Shown here piece by piece: positions 29,386-29,997 of a stretch of DNA of 64,000 bases. How positions within the stretch are numbered: position 1 is the stretch's first letter; each line of letters begins with the position of its first letter. This stretch comes from Pyrinomonadaceae bacterium (GTDB lineage Bacteria; Acidobacteriota; Blastocatellia; Pyrinomonadales; Pyrinomonadaceae), in NCBI GenBank assembly GCA_036277115.1, contig DASUNM010000023.1, forward strand, positions 1,054,001 to 1,118,000, written 5' to 3'. A program made the translations under genes and the position numbers. The notes beneath the pieces are model-generated. The model had not been told where the DNA came from and searched no databases. It saw nothing but the letters and a program-made list of their open reading frames with translations.

Positions 29386-29997
29386 ATGATCAAGCGTGCG
29401 TTGAGTTTCTTTTTCATACTCGTCACCGCATCCCTGGCCGCCGGGCAAACAACGCCGGCCCCGTCGCCGACAGCGACACCGACTCCGGCCCGACCGGCGG
29501 CACCAAAGACTCATCTGAAAGTAGGCGATGCGGCGCCCGACTTTAACTTGCCCAGCACCATCATCGGCGCGGACAACCGTTCTGTGCGCTACAAACTGAG
29601 TGACCTTAAAGGCAAGAAAAACGTCGTGCTCGCGTTTTATGTGCTGGCGTTCACCGGTGGTTGAACGAAAGAAATGAAGGCGTATCAGGCTGATATCGCC
29701 AAATTCGAAGCGACCGACACACAGGTTTTTGGCGTTAGCGTTGACAGCGTTCCCGCTAATCGCGAATTCGCCAGGAAAGAAGGCATCACGTTTCCGTTGC
29801 TCAGCGACTTCGCCAAGCGCTCCGTTGTGAAGGACTACGGCATTTTCAGTGAAGAAGGCGGCTATGGAAATCGCGCGACCTTTGTGATCGACAAGAACGG
29901 AATTATTCAACACATCAAGGAAGGCAACGAGGCGATTGACCCAACCAGTGCCATGGACACCTGCAACATCCTGACGCACAAGAAAGCCACGCAATAG
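29386..29997 (+). CDS. secreted peroxiredoxin-family selenoprotein with UGA-encoded residue at the peroxidatic position
   Basis: One 203-residue protein if the in-frame TGA at 29662-29664 is read as selenocysteine (residue 93). The ATG at 29386 has a strong ribosome binding site (AAAAGGAG). A signal peptide ([21 protein letters not shown]) and Pro/Thr-rich linker precede the AhpC/TSA domain: [26 protein letters not shown], then FTGG-U-TKEM, where all peroxiredoxins of this type have the catalytic Cys (compare PGC-TKEA in bcp at 15423). The frame continues intact for 110 codons with [24 protein letters not shown] and [11 protein letters not shown]. Cys193 is a possible resolving residue. A hairpin fitting a bacterial SECIS follows the TGA. 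The alternative is a pseudogene with a nonsense mutation. Confidence 0.85.
29662..29700 (+). promoter_or_regulatory. putative bacterial SECIS element with recoded UGA
   Basis: After the TGA (29662-29664) a hairpin at 29679-29700 pairs GGCG with CGCC and TATCA with TGATA around a bulged T, leaving the apical loop GGC (29688-29690). The loop guanines lie 24-25 nt after the UGA, inside the 16-37 nt window known for bacterial SECIS elements, whose loop needs a G in the first two positions. Confidence 0.7.

Follow-up and report, generated by a model that had tools for sequence, protein, structure and literature searches.

The locus at 29386-29997 (+) of the window (the whole 64,000-nucleotide stretch of Pyrinomonadaceae DNA that was analysed) raises the question of whether an in-frame TGA, standing where AhpC/TSA proteins carry their peroxidatic Cys, is read as selenocysteine (Sec), and, if so, what kind of enzyme is made and on which side of the inner membrane it would act. 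Our answer is that the gene very probably encodes an exported, AhpE-like Sec peroxiredoxin, with Sec inserted by SelB at a hairpin beside the UGA, peroxide attacked by the selenolate and the product resolved by a thiol.

Reading frame, active site and fold

Direct translation through the TGA yields a single AhpC/TSA protein of 203 residues (...VLAFTGG(TGA)TKEMKAY...THKKATQ(TAG)), in which the lone in-frame TGA is codon 93 (29662-29664) and 110 codons separate it from the terminal TAG (29995-29997). The Pfam domain PF00578 matched residues 46-177 (E 2e-35, TGA read as Cys) and so spanned the TGA, whereas mechanical ORF calling cut the gene there into frames of 99 and 107 aa, the split that the preliminary description had expected of gene callers. 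That description had also compared the site with the bcp gene, and rightly: the paralogue at about 15426-15836 reads DDTPG-C-TKEA, with Cys where the Sec gene has TGA. The features, all on the + strand, are as follows.

29370..29385, +, ribosome binding region AAAGGAGTACCGAATC, with GGAG ending 9 nt upstream of the ATG (read from the sequence)
29386..29997, +, gene for a probable Sec-containing, apparently exported AhpE-like peroxiredoxin (203 residues, UGA taken as Sec, stop TAG)
29386..29445, +, predicted signal peptide (rule-based reading); a linker rich in Pro, Thr and Ala then runs to about 29505
29641..29664, +, active-site motif V-L-A-F-T-G-G-U, which retains the catalytic Thr and has Val for the canonical Pro
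29662..29664, +, probable selenocysteine codon, in-frame TGA, residue 93 (from family conservation and the Sec machinery in the genome)
29680..29699, +, SECIS-like hairpin GCGTATC-AGGCT-GATATCGC, with one bulged T (from a single-sequence fold and covariation)
29962..29964, +, TGC codon of residue 193, the sole Cys downstream of the Sec codon and a candidate resolving Cys, within the predicted C-terminal helix

Family members were compared at 110 loci (103 distinct over 180 bases), of which 98 had TGA at the site and 12 a Cys codon, and none TAA or TAG. The preliminary description had reported a TxxU motif that keeps the catalytic Thr. The Thr, at -3, is conserved in the family along with an invariant Arg; the motif is more exactly VxxxTxxU, as against the usual PxxxTxxU, the Pro at -7 being Val in the clade of the window. 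Pro was absent from 42 of the 99 Sec loci and retained by all 12 Cys members, such that within the family non-Pro residues are confined to Sec members. Loss of this Pro from the Pxxx(T/S)xxC motif may alter activity, and it is the feature that would favor a peroxiredoxin-fold selenoprotein whose main work is something else, for example that of an exported thiol oxidoreductase. We consider such a protein unlikely, given that the Thr and Arg are conserved, that the fold is AhpE-like with its AF dyad kept, and that relatives in other classes retain the Pro. The structural model (pLDDT 96, from 44 sequences) superimposed on AhpE of M. tuberculosis with a TM of 0.84-0.86 at 36-38% identity, and its top fold match was 3hjp_A, Bcp4 of Sulfolobus.

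The sequence after the active site contained exactly one Cys in 110/110 loci. It forms an invariant alignment column (C153) and falls within the last predicted helix (147-162 of the model), a helix in which a resolving Cys is known from Prx5-type enzymes.

Neighboring genes were also inspected. Directly downstream on the same strand lies a VanY-type D-alanyl-D-alanine carboxypeptidase (30015-30737, +; Pfam E 3e-13); a TatA/TatB-like small protein, recognized by eye, is encoded about 6 kb downstream of the Sec peroxiredoxin gene (35826-36239, +); and a subtilase-like protein (21121-24306, -) has an N-terminal part made of a long run of GITASGAD/GITVSGAD-type repeats. The gene at 31435-33042 (-) combines a PpiC/SurA-like N-terminal part with a DsbA-like domain (FQCSACGGMYP), and its homologue is found, convergent, near the Sec peroxiredoxin gene at four other loci. 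This protein is, on weak evidence, a possible envelope redox partner of the Sec peroxiredoxin. Neighbor clustering placed a DsbA-like gene nearby in only five family loci, and across the family loci it gave no consistently conserved partner and none that would name a reductant.

Probable export of the protein

The signal peptide and strong ribosome binding site reported earlier were both found again, the former predicted by rule only. An export-type N-terminus was scored at 110/110 family loci by a rule combining hydrophobicity and motif; by this rule the hydrophobic core was clear in 99 of the 110, six matched a lipobox, and nine of the eleven weaker N-termini start with MERRSF, MNRR or similar, i.e., are twin-Arg-like. 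The N-terminal segments thus vary both in sequence and in apparent type (general, lipobox, twin-Arg-like), and a signal that changes in type while export is kept would suggest that the location itself is selected. Since the signal peptide was judged by rule only, the segment could instead be a membrane anchor with the enzyme facing the cytosol, or no signal at all; this seems quite improbable for N-termini that differ so much in sequence and type and yet form an export-type segment at every one of the 110 loci. We read the protein as one that would be exported across the inner membrane.

Probable reading of the TGA as selenocysteine

The genome of the window (4.85 Mb in 30 contigs, 100% complete) was searched for the Sec machinery, as the preliminary description had proposed, and all of its parts were present: a tRNA-Sec whose anticodon is TCA (67 bits, in agreement with ARAGORN), selA (535 bits), selB (355 bits), which shares its contig with the window, and selD (362 bits), all four above the curated cut-offs. 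The selD gene (L013, G000:C27:518547-519476) itself contains a UGA (VSCSG-U-AAKLAP). A second UGA peroxiredoxin, WTPV-U-TAQM, with no evident signal peptide, was noted at G000:C23:593374-593769 (-) (loci L017/L018); a Cys peroxiredoxin-like match lies nearby (594564-594977), and many genomes of the order contain genes similar to this second UGA peroxiredoxin. Among genomes with a family gene, selA was above cut-off in 21 of 22 tested with TGA and in 9 of 12 with Cys, its absences being weak evidence because the completeness of the tested genomes was not given. A simple origin of the Cys forms in a loss of Sec decoding found no support, selA being still present in those nine Cys genomes.

A hairpin that resembles a bacterial SECIS element is located a short way 3' of the TGA. 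When the T of the TGA is numbered 0, bases 18-24 in the window pair with 30-37 and the loop AGGCT occupies 25-29, with 22 nt from the UGA to the apical loop. Other members have GGATACC-AGGCT-GGTATCC or GGATTCC-AGGCT-GGAATCC, and the family in general shows a loop of AGGCU or AGUCU upon a covarying stem. Pairs 24-30, 23-31 and 22-32 were kept in 73/73 distinct sequences, including two-sided changes (23-31: T-A in 26 and C-G in 47; 22-32: A-T in 65 and T-A in 8), and the covariation follows through the codons, Tyr TAT going with Asp GAT, Tyr TAC with Gly GGT, and Phe TTC with Gly GGA. Pairing was found in 97% of the core cells overall, compared with 19-68% for slid versions; 0 of 2000 shuffles reached 97%, a result that is not to be taken as a probability because shuffling leaves the relatedness of the sequences in place. 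The four core pairs together were kept in 0 of the 12 Cys homologues. The folding z-score at +3 was -1.95 for TGA genes and -0.74 for Cys genes and lay near zero from +30 to +100, the folding energy being clearly depressed only at the place of the hairpin. Rfam returned no match in the window, and at a lax threshold gave only chance-level ones near the TGA, which tells little about so short a hairpin. Bacterial SECIS elements are marked, in published work, by a small apical loop downstream of the UGA in which a G is conserved (PMC1088965), and the present loop and stem conform to this; binding by SelB is putative.

That the UGA is translated as something other than Sec, i.e., as Cys or Trp through an altered code or by Sec-free readthrough, agrees with the alignment insofar as the residue stands opposite Cys in relatives, and insertion of Cys would be compatible with the sequence. 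We regard this as very improbable: UGA is the ordinary stop of family relatives (L027, L030 and L032), the genome holds the Sec machinery, and the hairpin is found with the TGA but lost where the codon is for Cys.

The homologues carried TGA or Cys at the site and nothing else, and the TGA recurred wherever the family was sampled. A second set had it in 31/31 loci, 22 of them genes absent from the first set. Within the order of the window, 52 places in 51 of 119 genomes matched at E <= 5e-37 with one TGA inside each, and same-genus genomes retained it. A phylum sample gave matches at 1e-40 in 62 of 396 genomes, almost all with one TGA. Two of the order matches had an additional TAG, the normal terminator of a shorter gene. 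The one case with TAA (G086; L135, G086:C263:18700-20100) is a 5'-truncated fragment with homology only from residue 112, so that the site is not covered; it is apparently a remnant of a family gene, either a decayed copy or an assembly join. Searching plasmids by tblastn gave only distant matches, of less than 60% identity. One family member (L101) comes from a record titled Acidimicrobiia and groups with Acidobacteriota in the tree, which may represent a mislabelled bin or a transfer.

The frame had been described as open and conserved for 110 codons past the TGA, in agreement with the comparison to seven close relatives, where dN after the TGA was 0.09-0.18 and dS exceeded 1 (dN/dS ~0.1); judged by these rates, purifying selection acts downstream of the TGA. 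In the tree, Cys forms are scattered in several places among Sec forms, and at least 4 changes between Sec and Cys are required by its well-supported branches (the count includes the outgroup). That the TGA is a recent nonsense mutation inactivating a Cys peroxiredoxin, as the two short frames seen by gene callers might suggest, is scarcely credible against the same TGA in 98/110 loci down to ~45% identity with TAA/TAG never found, purifying selection after it, a covarying hairpin, and a lone apparent remnant elsewhere (L135) that does not cover the site. Across the Acidobacteriota the gene recurs with its UGA unchanged and its hairpin co-evolving. The preliminary description had called the protein a probable selenoprotein, and this reading is now strongly supported at the level of sequence.

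Proposed mechanism and relation to known peroxiredoxins

We infer that Sec is inserted, that the protein is exported, that its chemistry is that of a peroxidase and that the Cys resolves, export and chemistry by analogy with what is known of the family. SelB carrying Sec-tRNA(UCA) would bind the hairpin 3' of the UGA and place Sec at residue 93, and the signal peptide would be removed upon export. The selenolate, helped by Thr90 and the conserved Arg, would then attack peroxide, and the resulting selenenic acid would be resolved either by the invariant C-terminal Cys, through an intra- or intersubunit selenenylsulfide, or by an external thiol. The preliminary description had further suggested a high-rate scavenger and a location that is unusual because most Sec peroxiredoxins are cytosolic; both suggestions may hold. 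A broader proposal, that the family represents a distinct, phylum-wide exported AhpE-like subfamily running a Sec-Cys cycle in the envelope, with the C-terminal Cys resolving and Sec relaxing the need for Pro, is put forward as tentative, and we would not yet favor it over its denial.

Standard gene calling misses genes of this sort, and the family gene is present in 51/119 genomes of the order and recurrent across the phylum; PrxU, the nearest curated selenoprotein model, fails to reach the family. If the enzyme works as proposed, Acidobacteriota spend selenium on peroxide defence outside the cytoplasm. The at least 4 changes between the forms also provide a natural Sec/Cys series in which the benefit of Sec to an exported peroxidase could be tested.

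Sec peroxiredoxins with a TxxU motif are an established kind (PMC13188914, PMC1088965, PMC1794560). PrxU (NF040737), the TxxU Sec peroxiredoxin first obtained from Eubacterium acidaminophilum, shares with the window protein the AhpC/TSA domain, the UGA at the peroxidatic position and the Thr at -3, and was its best NCBIfam model; the score of 71.3 bits is well below the cut-off of 270, because of which the protein is not considered a PrxU equivalog. It differs from PrxU in its predicted export signal, in Val for the Pro of PxxxTxxU, and in the one invariant C-terminal Cys. The closest solved relative in a single-sequence search was AhpE of M. tuberculosis (Rv2238c; E 3e-25), which also ranked among the leading matches in both the profile and the fold comparison, and the window protein has before its active site the AF dyad that belongs to the AhpE-type motif (PMC5302317). 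AhpE works with Cys and contains no second one (PMC8945050), whereas the window protein would combine Sec with a single conserved C-terminal Cys and carry an export signal; it is labelled AhpE-like and not AhpE because Sec plus an invariant Cys departs from the single Cys of AhpE. Proteins of the PrxQ/BCP group, e.g., Sulfolobus Bcp4, the top fold match, are alike in fold; there is no PrxQ-type Cys at +5, since in all 110 loci the 12 residues after the active site are free of Cys. Peroxiredoxin-like thiol:disulfide oxidoreductase selenoproteins carry UxxC (PMC13188914) and have in common with the window protein a PF00578 domain and Sec, the difference being that here TKE follows the Sec, with no Cys at +3. 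An exported Sec peroxiredoxin was not mentioned in the part of the literature that was searched, which is weak evidence of novelty. The kind of selenoprotein is therefore not new, TxxU Sec peroxiredoxins being already established, whereas the exported AhpE-like Sec subfamily may be; what seems unusual in it is the predicted export signal and, in the clade of the window, the loss of the canonical active-site Pro.
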